Positions 24,888-35,420 of a DNA stretch of 64,000 bases are shown here, in pieces. The notes below the pieces were generated by a model. The model was not told the DNA's origin and ran no database searches. It worked only from the letters and a program-made list of their open reading frames with translations. The stretch is from Gammaproteobacteria bacterium. Lineage in GTDB: Bacteria; Pseudomonadota; Gammaproteobacteria; Steroidobacterales; XN24. The first letter of the stretch is position 1, and each line of letters begins with the position of its first letter. Made by a program: the position numbers and the translations under genes. Where the stretch lies: contig JAHEFR010000005.1 in NCBI GenBank assembly GCA_024640085.1, positions 1 to 64,000 of the forward strand, given 5' to 3'.

Positions 24888-26489
24888 ATGAGCGACCGTG
24901 ATGTCATGCAATACGACGTAGCTGTAGTCGGTGGCGGACCCGCCGGTCTCGCCTGCGCAATCCGGCTGAAGAACCAGAAACCCGATCTTTCGGTGTGCCT
25001 GCTGGAGAAGGGCTCGGAGCTAGGCGCCCATGCGTTGTCCGGCGCGGTGATGGAGCCCGGTCCGCTGGACGAACTCTGGCCTGGGTGGCGCGACAACCCG
25101 CCGGGAATCTGTGTGCCGGCCGGAGACGACGAATTCCTCTTCCTGTCACGCAAGAAAGCGTATCGCTTGCCAACCCCTCCCCAGATGAATAATCACGGCA
25201 ACTTCATCATCTCGCTTGGCTCGCTGGTAAAGAATCTGGGCGGCGTGGCCGAAACCCTGGGCGTTGACGTCTTCCCGGGCTTCTCAGGGGCGGAATTGCT
25301 GATCGATGAGGAACGGGTCATCGGCGTGCGTTGCGGCGACATGGGAGTACAGGCCGACGGCACGCCGGGGCCGTCCCACGCTCCGGGCGTGGATATCCAC
25401 GCCTCGGTGACTGTCCTCGCCGAGGGCTGCCGGGGCAGCCTGAGCAAGCAGGCGATCCGGCGGTTCCGGCTGGACGCCGACAGCATGCCCCAGACCTACG
25501 GCCTGGGATTCAAGGAGCTATGGCGTCTGCCCGAGGGCCGGTCGCAGCCCGGACTCATACAGCACACTGTCGGCTGGCCGCTGGATGCCAGGACCTACGG
25601 AGGCAGCTTCGTCTATCACCTGGATGACGATCGCGTCTATATCGGCTTCGTGATCGGGCTGGACTACGAGGATCCCGTGTTCTCGCCGTTCGAGGCGTTC
25701 CAGCAGTTCAAGCATCATCCCCGCATGCACGCGCTGCTCGAAGGCGGAGAGATCCTGGCTTCGGGGGCCAGGACCCTGGTGGAGGGCGGTCTGCAGGCGC
25801 TGCCGCGGCTCGAAATGCCCGGTGCCGTGCTCGTGGGCGACGCGGCGGGCACGCTCAACGTCCCCAAGATCAAGGGCATCCACATGGCGCTCGACTCCGG
25901 CATGATCGCCGCCGACCACATCGCCGAAGCAGGATCCGGTGACGGCTTCGACGCCCGCTGGCGCGGATCGGGCGCGGCGGCGGAACTGAAGAAGGTCCGC
26001 AACGTCAGGCCGGGGTTCAATCGTGGCTTGTGGCTGGGCCTGATCAACGCCGCCTGGGAGACCGTCACGGCCGGGCGCAGCCCCTGGACTCTGAAGACAC
26101 GGGCGGATCACGACAGCCTCCGGACGGTCGGGGACGGGACCGCGGCCAGGGACGAGAACTGGCTGGACAAGCGCGACCTGCCGCCGCGGGACCGGCTGGC
26201 TTCGGTCTACTTCGCCAACAACGCCCACGAGGAGGATCAGCCGGTCCACTTGCGCGTCGCGGATACCTCTATCTGTGCTACCCGGTGTTACGAGGAGTTC
26301 CGCAACCCCTGCACGCGGTTCTGCCCGGCCCAGGTCTACGAAATCGTCGAGGACGAAGCCGGGCGGAAGCTGCAGATCAATGCCTCTAACTGCGTCCACT
26401 GCAAGGCCTGCGATATCAAGGACCCCTACCAGATCATCGACTGGGTGCCGCCCGAGGGCGGTTCCGGGCCGAATTACCAGAACCTGTAG
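24888..26489 (+). CDS. Electron transfer flavoprotein-ubiquinone oxidoreductase
   Basis: Membrane-associated FAD/4Fe-4S enzyme moving electrons from ETF to the quinone pool. It has 533 residues, close to the usual 540-550. It has an FAD-binding start VAVVGGGPAGLACAI, VGDAAGTLNVPKIKGIHMA, and a C-terminal ferredoxin-like module with cysteines in CATRCYEEF and NCVHCKACDIKDPYQ, ending PPEGGSGPNYQNL as is standard. It completes the respiratory route for isovaleryl-CoA dehydrogenase with EtfAB. Its last 56 bases overlap the convergent Fe2OG gene. Confidence 0.94.
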   Translation: MSDRDVMQYDVAVVGGGPAGLACAIRLKNQKPDLSVCLLEKGSELGAHALSGAVMEPGPLDELWPGWRDNPPGICVPAGDDEFLFLSRKKAYRLPTPPQMNNHGNFIISLGSLVKNLGGVAETLGVDVFPGFSGAELLIDEERVIGVRCGDMGVQADGTPGPSHAPGVDIHASVTVLAEGCRGSLSKQAIRRFRLDADSMPQTYGLGFKELWRLPEGRSQPGLIQHTVGWPLDARTYGGSFVYHLDDDRVYIGFVIGLDYEDPVFSPFEAFQQFKHHPRMHALLEGGEILASGARTLVEGGLQALPRLEMPGAVLVGDAAGTLNVPKIKGIHMALDSGMIAADHIAEAGSGDGFDARWRGSGAAAELKKVRNVRPGFNRGLWLGLINAAWETVTAGRSPWTLKTRADHDSLRTVGDGTAARDENWLDKRDLPPRDRLASVYFANNAHEEDQPVHLRVADTSICATRCYEEFRNPCTRFCPAQVYEIVEDEAGRKLQINASNCVHCKACDIKDPYQIIDWVPPEGGSGPNYQNL

Positions 26490-27132
26490 ACGCACTCATC
26501 ACGCGGGCTACCTTGCCCGGCGCCTGAGCGGCGGACACATGTTCGGTGTGCTGCGGGACAGGTGAGGCCTGGTGAAGCTGGGTAATGAGGATGTACTTGG
26601 GCCCGCTCTCCGGGGGGTTGCCCCGATGCAGGAACGGCCAGCCGACGGGGCAGAGCAACATCCGGCCCTCGACCGGCTTGATCGCGACGCCCTGCCATCG
26701 ATAGTCGGTCTCCCCGCCTTCCTCCACCGTGTTCAGGTACCAGATGGCCGTAATCACCCGTGTCGGGCTGCGGCCGATGTTGTCGGAATGCCACGCGAGG
26801 AAACCCTCGCCCTCGCGATAGCGAGTGATGCGTGGCTCTTCGGGATAGACGCCGATGGGGAAGGCCTGGCCCCACCGCCCCATATAGTCGCTCAGTCGGC
26901 GCCGCAGGGAGTCCAGGATGACGCGATTGACGTCGTCCCAGCCGTCCCGATGAGTCCACAGCAGGATCTCGGTCGTGGCCTTGACCCGCGTGTCCACCCG
27001 TCCAGCCGCGCCGCCACCGACCATTCCCTTGACCTTGCGCGGGTCCGCTTCGAAACGATCGATCACGTCGCGACAGAAATCCGGGGGCAGTTCCCGATCG
27101 TAAATACCGAACAGCGATTCCGTTGCGTTCAC
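26434..27132 (-). CDS. 2-oxoglutarate/Fe(II) oxygenase, prolyl 4-hydroxylase-like
   Basis: Protein of 232 residues. I start at the GTG 27130-27132, which has GGAGGG upstream; the frame is open to 27369 but that part is low-complexity and inside the etfB promoter. The iron ligands are H115 and D117 (FLAWHSDNIG) and H169 (FLHRG). The 2-oxoglutarate-binding residue is K179 (SGPKYILI), the lysine version seen in prolyl 4-hydroxylases. So the domain looks active. The substrate is unknown. The last 18 codons are antisense to the end of ETF-QO and form an unstructured-looking tail. It is divergent from etfBA. Confidence 0.75.
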   Translation of the reverse strand: MNATESLFGIYDRELPPDFCRDVIDRFEADPRKVKGMVGGGAAGRVDTRVKATTEILLWTHRDGWDDVNRVILDSLRRRLSDYMGRWGQAFPIGVYPEEPRITRYREGEGFLAWHSDNIGRSPTRVITAIWYLNTVEEGGETDYRWQGVAIKPVEGRMLLCPVGWPFLHRGNPPESGPKYILITQLHQASPVPQHTEHVSAAQAPGKVARVMSASTGSGNSARNRPRAAPSR

Positions 27133-27368
27133 GGTCTTCCCTCCGCCACCAAGCCTCTCCCTCGGCCGTCCTGTCCTGAGACGCGGCCTACTCTGAAACC
27201 GGACCATCGGGGCGCCGTCGTGTTTCCTGGTCCGCGACAAGGCGAGACTGAGCCGGGTCAAGGCGATATCCCCTCCGCCGCCGGAAGTCCGCCGGCCCCC
27301 GGGGTCAAGAACCGGCAGGTAAAGCGTTACAATGATCGTTTTCGACCAGGTCCCGAGCGGGAGGGCCA
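27133..27368 (+). promoter_or_regulatory. Promoter region of etfBA
   Basis: A TACAAT hexamer at 27328-27333 is the best -10 candidate for etfB, 36 bases before its ATG, with a GGGAGGG ribosome-binding site just before the gene. The hexamer 17 bases upstream (TCAAGA) is a poor -35. The rest of the gap holds no gene I can support. Confidence 0.4.
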
Positions 27369-28115
27369 ATGAAAGTTCTCGTGGGCATCAAACGGGTCAT
27401 CGACTACAACGTGCGCGTCCAGATCAACCGGGAGGGCACGGACGTGGTCAAGGAAGGGGTCAAGATGAGCATCAACCCCTTCGACGAGATCGCGGTGGAG
27501 GCGGCGCTCCGGATCAGGGAAGCCGGTCAGGCGGACGAAGTTATCGTCGCGACAATAGGTCCCGGCGCCGCCCAGCAGCAGTTGCGCACTGCCCTGGCCA
27601 TGGGCGCTGACCGCGCCATCCTGCTCGAGACCGACCGGGAGATCCAGCCGCTGGCGGCAGCCAGGGCGCTGATGAAACTGGTGGAGAAGGAACAGCCCGG
27701 ACTGGTGCTGCTGGGCAAGCAGGCCATCGACGACGATGCCAACCAGGTGGGCCAGATGCTGGCCGCGCAGTGGGATCGTCCCCAGGCCACGTTCATCTCC
27801 GGCCTCGACCTGTCCGACGGCAAGCTCAAAGCCGTGCGGGAGGTGGATGCGGGTCTCGAGACTGTCGAAGTCAGCCTGCCCGCCGTCCTGACCGTGGACC
27901 TGCGGCTCAACGAGCCCCGCTTCGTGAAGATGCCGGACATCATGAAAGCCAAGCGCAAGCCCCTGGAAACGATCGCCTTCGACAGCATCGGCATCGACAT
28001 GCCGCCGCAACTGGAGAACCTGGGATACGAGGCGCCGCCGAAGCGGTCCGGCGGGGTCAGGGTGGATTCTGTGGAGGCGCTGGTCGCCGCACTGAACGAC
28101 AAGGGGGTGCTGTGA
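27369..28115 (+). CDS. etfB: Electron transfer flavoprotein, beta subunit
   Basis: AMP-binding subunit of the soluble ETF heterodimer that accepts electrons from acyl-CoA dehydrogenases. It has 248 residues, the usual length, starting MKVLVGIKRVIDYNVRV. The signature regions SINPFDEIAVEAALRI, LLGKQAIDDDANQVGQML and VDLRLNEPRF (family PRY/F) are present. The TGA overlaps the etfA ATG by one base, implying strict 1:1 coupled translation. Confidence 0.95.
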   Translation: MKVLVGIKRVIDYNVRVQINREGTDVVKEGVKMSINPFDEIAVEAALRIREAGQADEVIVATIGPGAAQQQLRTALAMGADRAILLETDREIQPLAAARALMKLVEKEQPGLVLLGKQAIDDDANQVGQMLAAQWDRPQATFISGLDLSDGKLKAVREVDAGLETVEVSLPAVLTVDLRLNEPRFVKMPDIMKAKRKPLETIAFDSIGIDMPPQLENLGYEAPPKRSGGVRVDSVEALVAALNDKGVL

Positions 28116-29056
28116 TGGCCACGGTGCTGCTACTTGCCGAGCATGACGGTGAGACGCTCAACGTCTCGACGGCGCGGGCAATGCGTTGCGCCATGGCCCT
28201 GGGCGAGGTGGACGTGGTCGTGCTCGGCGCCGGGACCGACGGGGTCGCCGAACAGGCGTCCCGGCTGGAGGGTGCCCGGCGGGTCCTACATGTAGACCGG
28301 CCGGAGAACGCTCATCCCGTGGCTGCCGTCATGGCGCCCCAGCTGGCGAGTCTGGCCAGCGAGTACGATGTCCTCCTCGCACCGTCATCCACCTTTGGCA
28401 GGGACATCCTGCCGCGGGTCGCGGCGCTATTGGGCGTGCCACAGATCAGCGACATCATGGAAGTGATCGACGAGCGCACGTTCAAGCGCCCCATCTATGC
28501 CGGCAACGTGATCACGACCGTGCGCGTCCCGGGAGACTGCAAGATCATCGGCACCGCCCGGATCGCGTCGTTTGCCGCCGTCGCCGGGGCCCAGGCCCCG
28601 GCCGCCGTGGAGTCGATCCAGGTCGAGGCCGACCTACCCACGGACACGGTTTGGATCGGGCTGGAGGCCTCCGGCGGAGATCGCCCCGATCTGCAGTCCG
28701 CCAACCGCGTCGTCGCCGGCGGGCGCGGCATCGGCAGCAAGGAGAACTTCGACCTGATCTTCCGTCTCGCCGACAGGCTCGGCGCTGCGGTGGGGGCATC
28801 CCGGGCGGCGGTCGATGCCGGTTACGTGCCCAATGACATGCAGATCGGGCAGACCGGCAAGATCATCGCGCCGGATCTGTACATCGCGTTCGGCATTTCA
28901 GGCGCCATCCAGCACATGACCGGCATCAAGGATGCCGGGGTCATCGTGGCCATCAACAAGGACGGCGAGGCTCCGATTTTCGAGGCCGCGGACATCGGGC
29001 TCGTGGGGGACCTGTTCCAGATCCTCCCCGAGCTGGAGAAGGCGCTGGGGGACTGA
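28115..29056 (+). CDS. etfA: Electron transfer flavoprotein, alpha subunit
   Basis: FAD-binding subunit of ETF, 313 residues from the ATG at 28115-28117. A longer in-frame reading from 27770 is an overlap artefact. The C-terminal FAD domain has [23 protein letters not shown], the [14 protein letters not shown] stretch and [21 protein letters not shown], all standard for EtfA. It forms the electron link between LiuA and ETF-QO of this block. Confidence 0.95.
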
Positions 29057-29068
29057 CGGGGGGCGCCG

Positions 29069-31018
29069 GTGAGCCAGACGCCCATGTGGACGCCCTCCGC
29101 CGAGCGGATCGCCGGCAGTCGCATGACCCGCTTCATGGGATACGCTGGTGATCTCGTGGATCGCCAATTCACTGACTACGAAGGGCTCTATCAGTGGAGC
29201 CTGGCGGATCCCGAGCGATTCTGGTCGGCGGTGTGGGACTTCTTCGGCGTCGTGGGACACCGGGGCGCCGTCACGCTGGCCGACGGCGACGCCATGCCTG
29301 GCGCCAGATGGTTCCCCGAAGCCCGTCTCAATTTCGCCGAAAACCTGCTGCGCCGCCGCGACGATCACCCGGCGCTGATCTTCCGCGGAGAGGATGGCCG
29401 CCGCGAGGTGGTCAGCTACCGGGACCTTGGCGATTCCGTTGCCCGCCTGGCTGCCGCCCTGCGGGCAACCGGTGTAGGTGCCGGGGACCGGGTCGCCGGC
29501 GTCATGCCCAACCGGCCGGAGACGGTGATCGCCATGCTGGCCGCCGCCAGTATTGGCGCGACCTGGTCGTCCTGCTCGCCGGACTTCGGCGTCAACGGCA
29601 TCCTCGACCGCTTCAGCCAGATCGAGCCCCGGGTCCTGTTCGTCACCGATGGTTATCTCTACAACGGCAAGCGCCTGGACTCCCTCGGTCGCGCCCGGCA
29701 AGTGCTCGCAGGCCTGGACTGCGTCGAACAGGTGGTCGTGGTGCCGTTCCTCGATCGCAGCCCCGAGATCGGCCAGCTGCGCGGTGCGGTGACCTGGGAC
29801 CGCTTCCTGGCTGACGAGGCGGAACCCGAGTTCGAGCCGTTGCCTTTCGATCACCCGCTCTATGTCCTCTATTCCTCGGGAACGACGGGCGTGCCCAAGT
29901 GCATCGTCCACGGCGCCGGCGGGACGCTGCTGCAGCACCTCAAGGAACACGGCCTGCATACCGACCTGGGCGCCGACGACGTGCTGTTCTACTTTACGAC
30001 CTGTGGCTGGATGATGTGGAACTGGCTGGTGTCCGGGCTGGCACAGGGGGCGAGCCTGGTGCTGTTCGACGGTTCGCCCTTTACGCCGGACCCCGGCGCA
30101 CTGTGGCGCATTGCCAAGGAGGAAGGCGTGACTGTCTTCGGCACTTCCGCCAAGTACCTTTCGGCCCTGGAGAAGGCCGGCGAGCGTCCGGGGGACACGC
30201 GGGACCTGAGCCGTCTGCGCGCGGTCCTCTCCACGGGCTCGCCGCTGGTGCCCGAATCTTTCGACTATGTCTACCGGCACATCAAGCAGGACCTGCAGCT
30301 GTCGTCAATCTCGGGCGGGACCGACATCGTCTCCTGCTTTGCCCTGGGCTGCCCGATCCTGCCTGTCCGTCGCGGAGAATTGCAGTGCCGGGGTCTCGGC
30401 ATGGCCGTGGAGGTGTGGGACCAGAACGGACGCGCGATGGTCGGCCGAAAGGGTGAGCTGGTCTGTGTCCGGCCCTTCCCCTGCATGCCCGTCGGGTTCT
30501 GGAATGACCCCGAGGGGACGAAATATCACGATGCCTATTTCGCGAGGTTCGAAGGCGTCTGGTGCCACGGTGACTATGCGGAACTGACTGCAAGCGGCGG
30601 TCTCGTGATCTACGGCCGGTCGGACACCGTGCTGAATCCCGGCGGCGTGCGGATCGGCACGGCCGAGATCTACCGGCAGGTGGAGAAGCTCGACGAAATC
30701 GTGGAATCACTGGCCGTCGGGCAGGAATGGCGTGACGACGTCCGGATCGTCCTCTTCGTCCGGTTGCGCGAAGGGTTGCGCCTCGATGAAGGACTGGAAC
30801 AGAAAATCTGCGACACGATCCGGACCAACGCCTCGCCGCGGCACGTGCCGGCCAGGATCGTACAGGTGGCGGACCTCCCGCGCACCATCAGCGGAAAGCT
30901 GGTCGAACTGGCGGTGCGCGAGATCATCCACGGCCGCCCGGTCAGGAACACGGACGCTCTCGCCAATCCCGAGTGCCTGGAGGAATTTCGCAACCGCCCG
31001 GAACTGGCCGGGGACTGA
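29069..31018 (+). CDS. Acetoacetyl-CoA synthetase (acetoacetate-CoA ligase)
   Basis: Activates acetoacetate with ATP and CoA. It has 649 residues from a GTG, 12 bases after etfA. It is an acyl-adenylate-forming enzyme with the phosphate loop [15 protein letters not shown], the GGTD motif ([12 protein letters not shown]) and the C-terminal catalytic lysine region ([12 protein letters not shown]). The N-terminal start ([15 protein letters not shown]) and [12 protein letters not shown]-type segment are typical of acetoacetyl-CoA synthetase rather than acetyl-CoA synthetase. With LiuE and the thiolase it turns the acetoacetate from leucine into acetyl-CoA without needing a succinyl-CoA transferase. 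Confidence 0.92.
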
Positions 31019-31021
31019 GGC

Positions 31022-32131
31022 ATGCGCATCGCCGCCGACAGGGGAACGGTTCTCGGCCTCTACCGGGCCGAGCTGGAGTCGGCCACCGTCCTGCCGGACC
31101 CGACCCAGGCGCGCGTGGCGCGCCTGCTCGGGGATCTGCAGCGGCGTCTGGTCCGCTCCGGACGGGGGCGAGGTTCACGCCTGCTTTCGGTGTTCAGGCG
31201 CGGCGGGCAGCGTCCGGAGACGGGTTTGTACATCTGGGGCGATACGGGCAGAGGCAAGACCTGGCTGATGGACCTGTTCTACGAGTCCCTGCCCTTCCCC
31301 GACAAGCTGCGTCGTCACTTCCACCGGTTCATGGCCGACGTCCACGAGGACATGGCCAGATTCCGGTATCGTCAGAATCCCCTCGACGCCGTTGCCGACC
31401 GGCTGGCGCGGTCCACGAGGATTATCTGCTTCGACGAGTTCTTCGTCTCCGATATCGCCGACGCCATGATCCTCGCGAACCTGTTCGAGGCGCTGTTCCG
31501 GCGCGGGGTCGCTCTGGTCGCCACCTCCAACGTCGCACCGGATGATCTCTACCGGGACGGACTGCAGCGGACCCGCTTCCTGCCGGCCATCGATCTCATC
31601 CAGGCCCATACAATCGTAGTGCACATGGACGGTGACAAGGATTTCCGGTTGCGGACACTGGAACGGGCGGAGATCTACCACAGCCCCCTCGACGAGGCTG
31701 CCCGTATCAGCCTGACGGACAGCTTCGAGGCGATCGCACCGAAGGTCTGCAGGCGTGACCACGACCTGAAGATCCTCGGCCGGGTGATCTCCACCGTGCG
31801 TCTCGCTGACGGTGCGGTGTGGTTCGAGTTCGCCGACATCTGTGACGGACCCCGAAGCCAGGCCGATTACATCGAGATCGCGCGCGGCTTCCACAGCGTC
31901 CTGATCTCCGGTGTACCCGTCTTCGACGAGTCCGCCGAAGACCAGGCCCGCCGGTTTATCGCCCTGGTAGACGAGTTCTACGATCGCAACGTGAAGCTCA
32001 TCCTCTCGGCCGCCGCGCCGCCGGACGATCTCTACACGGGAAACAGGCTGGAGTTCGAATTCCGGCGGACTCGCAGCCGGCTCGAGGAGATGCAGTCCCA
32101 CGAATACCTGGGCAGGCCTCATCTCCCCTGA
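31022..32131 (+). CDS. zapE: ZapE/AFG1-like ATPase
   Basis: Protein of 369 residues with Walker A GDTGRGKTWLMD, Walker B IICFDEFFVSDIADAMIL and sensor region VALVATSNVAPDDLY, the AFG1 pattern. In E. coli this family (ZapE) associates with the division ring; in mitochondria AFG1 assists protein quality control. It starts only 3 bases after the acetoacetyl-CoA synthetase stop, so it is probably co-transcribed, though no functional link to leucine breakdown is evident. Length matches the family. Confidence 0.88.
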   Translation: MRIAADRGTVLGLYRAELESATVLPDPTQARVARLLGDLQRRLVRSGRGRGSRLLSVFRRGGQRPETGLYIWGDTGRGKTWLMDLFYESLPFPDKLRRHFHRFMADVHEDMARFRYRQNPLDAVADRLARSTRIICFDEFFVSDIADAMILANLFEALFRRGVALVATSNVAPDDLYRDGLQRTRFLPAIDLIQAHTIVVHMDGDKDFRLRTLERAEIYHSPLDEAARISLTDSFEAIAPKVCRRDHDLKILGRVISTVRLADGAVWFEFADICDGPRSQADYIEIARGFHSVLISGVPVFDESAEDQARRFIALVDEFYDRNVKLILSAAAPPDDLYTGNRLEFEFRRTRSRLEEMQSHEYLGRPHLP

Positions 32132-32629: not shown

Positions 32630-33058
32630 ATGGATGATGGACAGGTGAGAGGGTCCTGCCTGTGCGGTGCGGTGGAATATGCCATCCCGGCAGACACGGG
32701 TAATTTTCAGTACTGCTACTGCAGCCGCTGCCGCAAGACCGGCGGCGCCGCTCACGCGGCCAATCTGATCGTGCCGGCCGACCGGTTCCGCTGGCTGAAA
32801 GGCGCGGACCAAGTCGAACAGTACGTGCACGCCGAGGCCAGCCGATTCTGCAATGCTTTTTGCCGGACGTGTGGCTCAAAGCTGCCCTGGATGACCCGCG
32901 ACGGAAAGTGGGCGGTGGTAACGGCCGGGACCCTGGACGACGACCCAGGGGCCCGTCCCCTCCGCAGCATATTCTGGGGATCGAGGGCGCCCTGGTACGT
33001 GATGCCTCCGGACCTGCCCGCCTTCGACGAACTTCCGCCAAGGACGGGTGGCAGCTAA
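32630..33058 (+). CDS. GFA-family zinc protein (Mss4-like fold)
   Basis: Protein of 142 residues with the family's cysteine pattern: GSCLCGAVEY near the start, CYCSRCRKTGGAAHA, and FCRTCGSKLP. These bind zinc in the glutathione-dependent formaldehyde-activating (Gfa/CENP-V) family. Most members have no proven activity and the original formaldehyde role is disputed, so only the family is claimed. It converges on the large reductase gene with a 50-base gap. Confidence 0.82.
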   Translation: MDDGQVRGSCLCGAVEYAIPADTGNFQYCYCSRCRKTGGAAHAANLIVPADRFRWLKGADQVEQYVHAEASRFCNAFCRTCGSKLPWMTRDGKWAVVTAGTLDDDPGARPLRSIFWGSRAPWYVMPPDLPAFDELPPRTGGS

Positions 33059-33108: not shown

Positions 33109-35313
33109 CTAGTGGGGACCTGCGATACGCCTGTCGAGGAAAGCGAACAGGTGAGACAGCCAGGCGTGGGGCAGCCAGGCCGCATGCCTCGACGGCGCCA
33201 CACCCTTGGATGTCACCGGCACATCCGCGATCTTCCGTCCTGCCTCGCTGACAGTCCTGTCCAGAAGGGCCGGATCGGATCTCAGCCGTGCCGCGAGTCG
33301 GCGTTTCTCGGCCAGTTGCTCATCGGTCACGCTGTCGTCGAAGGAGTGGAGGCCCGCGATACGGAAACCGTGTTCGCAGAACAGGCGGTAGATCTCTTTC
33401 ACTTTCTCCATGCTGAGTTCGCGGCCGACTGTGTAATCCTCGAAACGGCCCGCCATCGCCAGCAGACAGGTCTCGGCGAGACAGGCGTAGGACACGCCGG
33501 GCGGCAACCCTATGTCATAGCCAAAGTCGATCGTTCCCGGGATCAGTACCTCTCCTGAGTCGATGACCAGCACGTCGGGGCGAACGGCCGCCTCCTCCGG
33601 ACTGATGTCGTGTGGACGCGCCACGTCACAGACCACGGCTCCGGGCTTGCATCGGGAGATGTCGAGGACGCGCTGGCCGAAAGCGCTGGTCGCGGTAACC
33701 ACGAGGTCGCAGTCGCCCAGGTGATCGTCAGGCCGCGTGCCGATGACCACCCTCGCCCCGGGCGTCTCGCACTGAATGCGGCGCTTGAGGTCGATCAGTC
33801 GCTCCGGCTCGATGGAGATCAGCACCACGTCCTTGATGGCCCTGGCGATCAGGCGGGCGCAGACCGCCCCGATGGAACCGGTGGCGCCGACGATCATCGC
33901 CCGCCCGCGGGTCAGGTCGGTCGCTCCCATCTTGCGGACGGCCTGCTTCGCCGCTTCCAGGGTGGCGGCGACGGTCAGGCTGTTACCGCTGGTAACAGCG
34001 ATGTCGGCCTCGTGAGCCACGGTCCTGCCGGCGTCCCCGATCACCGATGTGAAGGCGCCGAGCCCCATGATCCTGGCACCACGGCGCTGGGCCGAGCGCG
34101 CCACCTGGAGGATCTTGTCATAGGTGCTGCGCACCCCTTGCTGCATCATCCGCCGCGGCGTGGCGCCCAGGGTGTACAGGTACCCTTCGACCTGCTGCCC
34201 GGTCAGGGGAGACACTGCGCCGGTCACGGTCGACACGTACATGGGCGGCAGGAATGACGCGCCCCACTCGACCAGAGGATCCGGCAGCAACCGCAGGTGG
34301 CGGAATCTCGGGTGAGCCTTGATCATCCTTACGGACAGGGGATGGATCACGAAAGCGAAGCGGTTCACACCCGACTGGCCGGGCTGGAGATACCGGATCC
34401 TGGGCGACCACTCCAGGGCGGGGATCTGATCCAGGTACGCGTCCTCGCTCAGGTCCTGGCCGGGATGGCTGTGCAATGCCACCAGAGCCGCCTCGACCAG
34501 TGCCGCCGAGGAACCGCCCCGGCCCTGGTCGCCATCCAGCTCGGGCATCAACGTGATCAGGATGGCCGCGCCCCGCCGGGCGAGATCGGCCACGTCCTCC
34601 GCCGAGGCCCGGTCCACCACAACGGTCTTGCCCCTCAGGTTCCCGGGCGAGAATGAGCGGATGGTGGCTGCGTCCCCGGCCAGCAGGTCGGCCCATCCCA
34701 CAAGTCCGTGCTGGCGGCGGCCCCGGCGAGATTCGGGAGACGGATACAGTCGCTCCAGCGGGTCCTGCCGCAAGGCTTCGAGGATAGGCCCGGCCGCCTG
34801 GGCCAGGGTCGCCTTGCGGGTCAGGCCCGGCACATGGGGCAGCCCGAAGAAGGTCACTGGATCGGCGTAGCGCACCTCGCAGCGATGGGTGGCCAGGGCC
34901 GATGCCAGACCGGTGTGGTTGAGACCGGGCATCATCAGGACCCGCTTGTCCGCGAAGATCCCTGGCTCCGCCCTGTCGGCCAGCACCACACCCCAGCGCT
35001 CCAGCGCGGGTCGGATGCCACTGCCGTCCACGACCGGAATGGTGCCCCCCGCCCGGCCGATGCCCTCGGTCGCTTTGTGGGTCGTCTGGGCGTGCCCCAG
35101 GCGCAGGATCAGAGGCAGGCCTTCAAGCCCGATGGCGCTGACGGCGTCGCCTCGCCCGTCGACCAGTCGCCGCGCCACGTCCAGATTCCGTCTACAGCTC
35201 ACTCGCCGGACGGAAAGGTCCCGGCCGAGGACACGCAGGGTGTCGTCGTGCTCTTCGCCGTCGTAGGCCACCATCAGGATGGTCTTCGTACCCGGCCGCG
35301 ATGCCTGTTGCAT
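33109..35313 (-). CDS. Acyl-ACP-reductase-like dehydrogenase fused to an unrecognised N-terminal half
   Basis: Protein of 734 residues from the ATG at 35311-35313 (a GTG at 35358 lies in promoter-like sequence). The C-terminal half (about 330-734) reads like cyanobacterial long-chain acyl-ACP reductase (COG5322 group): VSTVTGAVSPLTGQQVEGYL, IMGLGAFTSVIG, VTSGNSLTVA, a nucleotide-binding MIVGATGSIGAV near 475, and YACLAETCLL, where C611 aligns with the cysteine that holds the acyl group in the cyanobacterial enzyme. The tail EKVKEIYRLFCEHGFRIAGL also matches. The first 330 residues, including TILMVAYDGEEHDDTL and a stretch GKTVVVDRASAEDVADLARRG, are unknown to me. An acyl-thioester reductase making aldehyde is the likeliest role; no aldehyde decarbonylase gene is nearby. 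Divergent from arfB. Confidence 0.6.
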   Translation of the reverse strand: MQQASRPGTKTILMVAYDGEEHDDTLRVLGRDLSVRRVSCRRNLDVARRLVDGRGDAVSAIGLEGLPLILRLGHAQTTHKATEGIGRAGGTIPVVDGSGIRPALERWGVVLADRAEPGIFADKRVLMMPGLNHTGLASALATHRCEVRYADPVTFFGLPHVPGLTRKATLAQAAGPILEALRQDPLERLYPSPESRRGRRQHGLVGWADLLAGDAATIRSFSPGNLRGKTVVVDRASAEDVADLARRGAAILITLMPELDGDQGRGGSSAALVEAALVALHSHPGQDLSEDAYLDQIPALEWSPRIRYLQPGQSGVNRFAFVIHPLSVRMIKAHPRFRHLRLLPDPLVEWGASFLPPMYVSTVTGAVSPLTGQQVEGYLYTLGATPRRMMQQGVRSTYDKILQVARSAQRRGARIMGLGAFTSVIGDAGRTVAHEADIAVTSGNSLTVAATLEAAKQAVRKMGATDLTRGRAMIVGATGSIGAVCARLIARAIKDVVLISIEPERLIDLKRRIQCETPGARVVIGTRPDDHLGDCDLVVTATSAFGQRVLDISRCKPGAVVCDVARPHDISPEEAAVRPDVLVIDSGEVLIPGTIDFGYDIGLPPGVSYACLAETCLLAMAGRFEDYTVGRELSMEKVKEIYRLFCEHGFRIAGLHSFDDSVTDEQLAEKRRLAARLRSDPALLDRTVSEAGRKIADVPVTSKGVAPSRHAAWLPHAWLSHLFAFLDRRIAGPH

Positions 35314-35420
35314 ATAATCGCCGCTCCCCGACAGGAACCCTTGCTCTAAATAAAGCACAATCTGCGGAAGACGGCGGTGGGCGGGAAGCGCCGTCGATCG
35401 ACAGCCAGCCAGACAGGCAG

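Follow-up and report, generated by a model that had tools for sequence, protein, structure and literature searches.

The window analysed here is a stretch of 64,000 nucleotides of a gammaproteobacterial contig (JAHEFR010000005.1). On its reverse strand lies an open reading frame of 734 codons which translates without an internal stop into a two-domain protein, a predicted acyl thioester reductase (Table 1). The first-pass annotation had called this protein twice as long as cyanobacterial acyl-ACP reductase (AAR), and the lengths of 734 and about 340 amino acids bear this out. An alternative GTG start at 35358 would yield a protein of 749 amino acids. The gene faces a set of electron-transfer and acyl-activation genes whose order, from ETF-QO to the AFG1-like ATPase, is the same in the sister genome G001. 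No lipid gene stands beside the window copy. As stated earlier from the sequence, no gene for aldehyde-deformylating oxygenase (ADO) is nearby: a Pfam scan found none among nine neighbouring window genes. A 142-amino-acid ORF on the forward strand (32630-33058) adjoins the reductase gene; its CLCG...CRKTGG pattern has, by eye, the look of the GFA family. The same ORF stands beside the copy in the sister genome, and a diverged form is found near the paralogue described below.

Table 1. Features of the two-domain reductase gene and its convergent neighbours in the window.
Feature	Position	Strand	Basis and remarks
ETF-QO, ETF beta, ETF alpha, acetoacetyl-CoA-synthetase-like AMP-binding enzyme, AFG1-like ATPase	24888..32128	+	Convergent with the reductase gene; context, joint action with the reductase only possible
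Two-domain acyl thioester reductase gene (predicted), 734 aa	33109..35313	-	ATG at 35313, stop at 33109-33111; ORF translation and full-length homologues
N-half, residues 1-345, putative degenerate AAR-fold lobe, lacking the catalytic Cys and a complete dinucleotide glycine motif	34279..35313	-	AlphaFold, fold search
N-half segment matching the nucleotide loop, P129-GLNHTGL-136	34906..34929	-	Only the first glycine, G130, kept; matched by eye
N-half segment matching the Cys helix, residues 270-280	34474..34506	-	E274-A275 kept; matched by eye
C-half, residues 346-690, AAR/thioester-reductase domain	33244..34278	-	Profiles, phmmer, fold; fold match begins at about 308
Nucleotide-binding loop V475-G-A-T-G-S-I-G482	33868..33891	-	G476 and G479 invariant; G482 in 55/62
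C611, predicted acyl-holding nucleophile, in YACLAET	33481..33483	-	phmmer alignment; invariant in 62/62

The fusion of the two halves is not a chance event, since dozens of genomes, spread over four or more phyla, encode the full-length protein. Its hosts are Chloroflexota, Acidobacteriota, Myxococcota and some Gammaproteobacteria; among the best 80 loci of one homologue scan, Chloroflexota form the majority and the other three groups are also represented. In the library searched, we found no paper on the fused family and no assay of any of its members. The tree, rooted at its midpoint only, places the window protein within a 36-row set (support 100/99) of Chloroflexota, Myxococcota, Acidobacteriota and unplaced rows. 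There it forms a long branch of poorly supported exact position. Because it groups away from the gammaproteobacterial copies, this placement suggests that the window gene may have been acquired by transfer. The same genome encodes a second two-domain copy (G000:C18:34600-36636), 36% identical to the window protein, which adjoins an Fe-ADH gene in divergent orientation. This paralogue carries a long Lys- and Ala-rich tail, also present in close relatives of the same family and order.

The C-terminal half is, as judged from its predicted structure and conserved residues, an AAR-fold domain, a relative of the cyanobacterial alkane-pathway reductase in which every catalytic part is present. The full-length predicted model has a mean pLDDT of 89.6 and a pTM of 0.86. 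In Foldseek, the first eleven rows for this half are all AAR chains and chains of the carmabin-pathway TAD domain. VIA-align returns Z-scores of 32-33.5 to AAR (6jzy, 6jzq) and the TAD, against 14.1 for the next fold; the AAR fold is matched over 326 residues with Z 33.3 and rmsd 2.8. The likeness to AAR proposed in the first-pass annotation is thus upheld by fold, with a refinement at the level of curated sequence models. Among these, the PigE thioester-reductase domain (NF053554, 6e-54, 183.6 bits, cut-off 850, only the reductase part matched) outscores cyanobacterial AAR (TIGR04058, 6e-20, 71.9 bits, curated cut-off 449.7), both being far under cut-off. The VGATGSIG nucleotide loop was correctly recognised at residues 475-482. 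So was the cysteine of YACLAETC: in the phmmer alignment C611 coincides with the catalytic Cys294 of Synechococcus AAR. Invariant in the 62 homologues are G476, A477, G479, Y609, A610, C611, L612, E614 and T615. An amino-acid, shikimate or quinate dehydrogenase identity, the alternative which had been named for checking, is rejected, as phenylalanine, shikimate and quinate dehydrogenases reach Z-scores of at most 14.1 against about 33 for AAR/TAD. PF01488, of the shikimate/quinate dehydrogenase type, stayed under cut-off in the Pfam scan of the protein.

The N-terminal half had been described as without a familiar motif, which agrees with our searches: none of the 62 members has a Pfam match above cut-off in this half, and no significant PDB sequence match was obtained. 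An adenylation or acyl-carrier domain was considered for this half and set aside, having no Pfam support in the 62 members. AlphaFold models the half alone with a mean pLDDT of 88.5. In VIA-align, nine AAR/TAD chains head the ranking (Z 12.4-13.4, 252-270 residues, rmsd 4.3-5.1); the best AAR scores 13.4 over 252 residues, and glutamate dehydrogenase follows at 9.8. The N-half shares the AAR order of structural elements and keeps G97, E274 and A275, the residue correspondence being matched by eye from the succession of helices and strands. By this match, position 271 is the counterpart of C611 and holds A, N, D, S or V, but Cys in 0 of 62. We call the N-half a degenerate AAR-fold lobe because AAR/TAD is its best fold, its loop keeps only G130 and the Cys is never present. 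The models thus support a degenerate AAR-fold copy which would have lost the catalytic Cys and most of the dinucleotide glycines. The half also diverges faster than its partner, with about 49% identity against about 72% in the C-half among the closest homologues of the 62. A tandem duplication by sequence alone is rejected: hhalign of the N-half against the C-half profiles gave E 0.53, and E 0.2 when stand-alone halves were added, neither of which is significant. The claim of a duplicate lobe therefore rests on the fold; in the E 0.2 alignment, the register is as the fold predicts. The built-in activating domain suggested by the first-pass annotation gives way to this predicted degenerate fold. 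The docking role proposed with it, or a structural one, is possible from the model, and we consider that the N-half is probably a fixed partner of the C-half in one of these two capacities.

The neighbourhoods of homologues point to wax-ester synthesis. In the gammaproteobacterial genome G002, the gene order is Fe-ADH, two-domain reductase and WS/DGAT, the latter two overlapping by 4 bp. The same 4-bp overlap occurs in two Chloroflexota genomes (G331 and G534) whose reductases are 60-61% identical to the window protein. The WS/DGAT of these genomes differs from that of G002, with about 23% identity; it was confirmed in G331 by Pfam and in both by a PF03007 search. Reductase and WS/DGAT are adjacent in G564 and G005, and one Acidobacteriota locus has a WS/DGAT near the reductase. 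In other Chloroflexota, an epimerase-type SDR, an acyltransferase (PF01553/PF03982) and an SCP2 protein lie downstream. At two loci, an SDR gene of the NAD_binding_4, fatty acyl reductase type (L035:4776-5867 and L075:10241-11356) immediately follows that of the two-domain reductase.

Co-occurrence follows the same trend. Of the 29 genomes that bear a homologue, 24 have WS/DGAT; in the class sample, 17 of 274 genomes score above the cut-off for it. Among relatives, all seven carriers have it versus 13 of 32 others (p 0.005), and in Chloroflexota the count is 7 of 8 for genomes with a window-type gene versus 15 of 243 for the rest (p 1e-7), both p values ignoring relatedness. Genome G326 has a window-type gene and lacks WS/DGAT. 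The window genome itself has three WS/DGAT genes. Searches of this genome for known suppliers detected neither an HMG-CoA-reductase homologue (FcrA type) nor an AcrB above cut-off; NF005539 (Acr1-type) gave matches under cut-off which look generic-SDR-like, one ORF having been inspected, and an Acr1-type reductase may be among them. The Sterile domain (FarA type) search returned zero matches everywhere, controls included.

A separate subfamily, of the Chloroflexus type, has WS/DGAT in 0 of 16 genomes. At five of its loci, an alpha/beta hydrolase gene lies directly downstream of the reductase. Since the sampled genomes of this type are without WS/DGAT, this hydrolase might be an ester-forming enzyme.

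Taken together, these data favour, with a probability of roughly 0.66, a fatty acyl thioester reductase which forms aldehydes for wax-ester synthesis and whose N-half is a dead lobe of the same fold. This agrees with the aldehyde- or alcohol-forming pathway of its own that was envisaged in the first-pass annotation, which is also our best reading. An aldehyde-forming acyl thioester reductase activity is likely, with the catalytic chemistry and the carrier (ACP or CoA) presumed. Wax esters as the end product are supported by linkage and co-occurrence in the family, and for the window copy itself we infer them. In the proposed sequence of events, acyl-ACP or acyl-CoA would hand its acyl group to the C-half, where C611 would hold it in thioester linkage. 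NAD(P)H held at the V475-G482 loop would then reduce this thioester, and a fatty aldehyde would be released. A separate dehydrogenase, such as the Fe-ADH of the paralogue loci, may convert the aldehyde to the alcohol, which WS/DGAT would join to acyl-CoA to give the wax ester.

The aldehyde might have another destination, namely ether lipids, fatty amines or, by way of an unknown oxygenase, alkanes or alkenes. Related enzymes do serve such ends, as AAR feeds ADO in cyanobacteria and PigE and TamH feed aminotransferases. The Chloroflexus-type subfamily without WS/DGAT fits this idea as well, and in some Marinobacter the two-domain reductase gene is immediately followed by one for a predicted metal-dependent hydrolase (PF10118; L085:10147-11019, L091:10170-11045). 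However, the repeated coupling of the reductase to WS/DGAT and Fe-ADH, the frequency of WS/DGAT in homologue-bearing genomes and the absence of ADO from the scanned neighbours render another product unlikely. It is very unlikely that the enzyme runs in reverse or on other thioesters, as an acylating aldehyde dehydrogenase which removes fatty aldehydes or takes part in fatty-acid degradation. The ETF, ETF-QO and AMP-binding genes nearby, in an order kept in the sister genome, would suit such a role. Yet they are on the opposite strand and point at the reductase gene, so that the two sets do not form one operon, and at other loci the reductase pairs with acyltransferases.

Doubt may also be directed at the dead lobe, since the N-half could instead be an unrelated Rossmann-like or periplasmic-binding-protein-like domain acting as a ligand-binding regulator. 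The top Foldseek rows for this half are sugar-binding proteins, at low TM-score, and the sequence link between the halves is not significant. Furthermore, G97 and D151 are invariant in the 62 homologues, so the N-half may still bind something. Against this stand the lead of the AAR/TAD chains in the structural aligner, the AAR order of elements and the E-A pair retained on the Cys helix, which leave an unrelated domain quite improbable.

The degenerate AAR-fold lobe also exists on its own. Many of the 251 sampled Chloroflexota genomes encode a separate C-half (about 360-390 amino acids) and at least one N-half (about 300 amino acids) at different loci. At six Chloroflexota loci, the stand-alone C-half gene is part of a conserved series of genes which also encodes an alpha/beta hydrolase, a V4R-domain protein, a hexapeptide protein and a response regulator. 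The stand-alone N-halves, noted at ten loci, have varied neighbourhoods; one of them was scanned and gave no Pfam match. We tentatively put forward, as an idea with somewhat less than even odds, that these proteins form an additional class of fatty acyl reductases for wax esters, built as AAR pseudo-dimers with a live and a dead lobe which are fused in most lineages and split elsewhere; activity, carrier docking or aldehyde hand-over would then depend on the dead lobe.

The supply of fatty alcohol in many wax-ester bacteria is unsettled, and this family, if the reading is true, adds an AAR-type route. It would account for wax synthesis in genomes which have WS/DGAT and lack AcrB and FcrA, and it would provide an aldehyde-forming reductase from outside the cyanobacteria, usable for oleochemical work. 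The role of the dead twin lobe as a pseudo-enzyme domain is open to direct deletion testing.

Four groups of known systems offer a comparison. The C-half shares with cyanobacterial AAR the fold, the nucleotide loop and the cysteine (C294 corresponding to C611). In contrast, AAR is a single-domain protein with no extra degenerate lobe, and identity is only about 24%, far under the family cut-off, with no ADO partner found near the window gene. The thioester reductase domains of PigE (N-terminal) and TamH (C-terminal), from prodigiosin and tambjamine pathways, possess the same Cys, and among curated models the C-half matches PigE best. For PigE, thioester reduction was reported, as was a homology with AAR that extends to the Cys (PMC8341465); TamH is a reported thioester reductase which does not accept acyl-CoA (PMC9594044). 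Unlike these, the window protein has no aminotransferase domain, a different partner lobe and another genomic context. The carmabin-pathway TAD domain (9e4s, 9e56) matches the C-half fold with Z 33.5, and the title of entry 9e56 describes a Cys in it as linked to dephospho-CoA; however, identity is about 19% and the TAD is numbered within a protein of more than 2,000 residues. No paper on carmabin biosynthesis was found in the library searched. Lastly, a 2025 study names FarA, AcrB, Acr1 and FcrA as wax-ester reductases (PMC11948995). The window protein would resemble them in its proposed role of providing WS/DGAT with fatty aldehyde or alcohol, whereas they belong to SDR and HMG-CoA-reductase type families.
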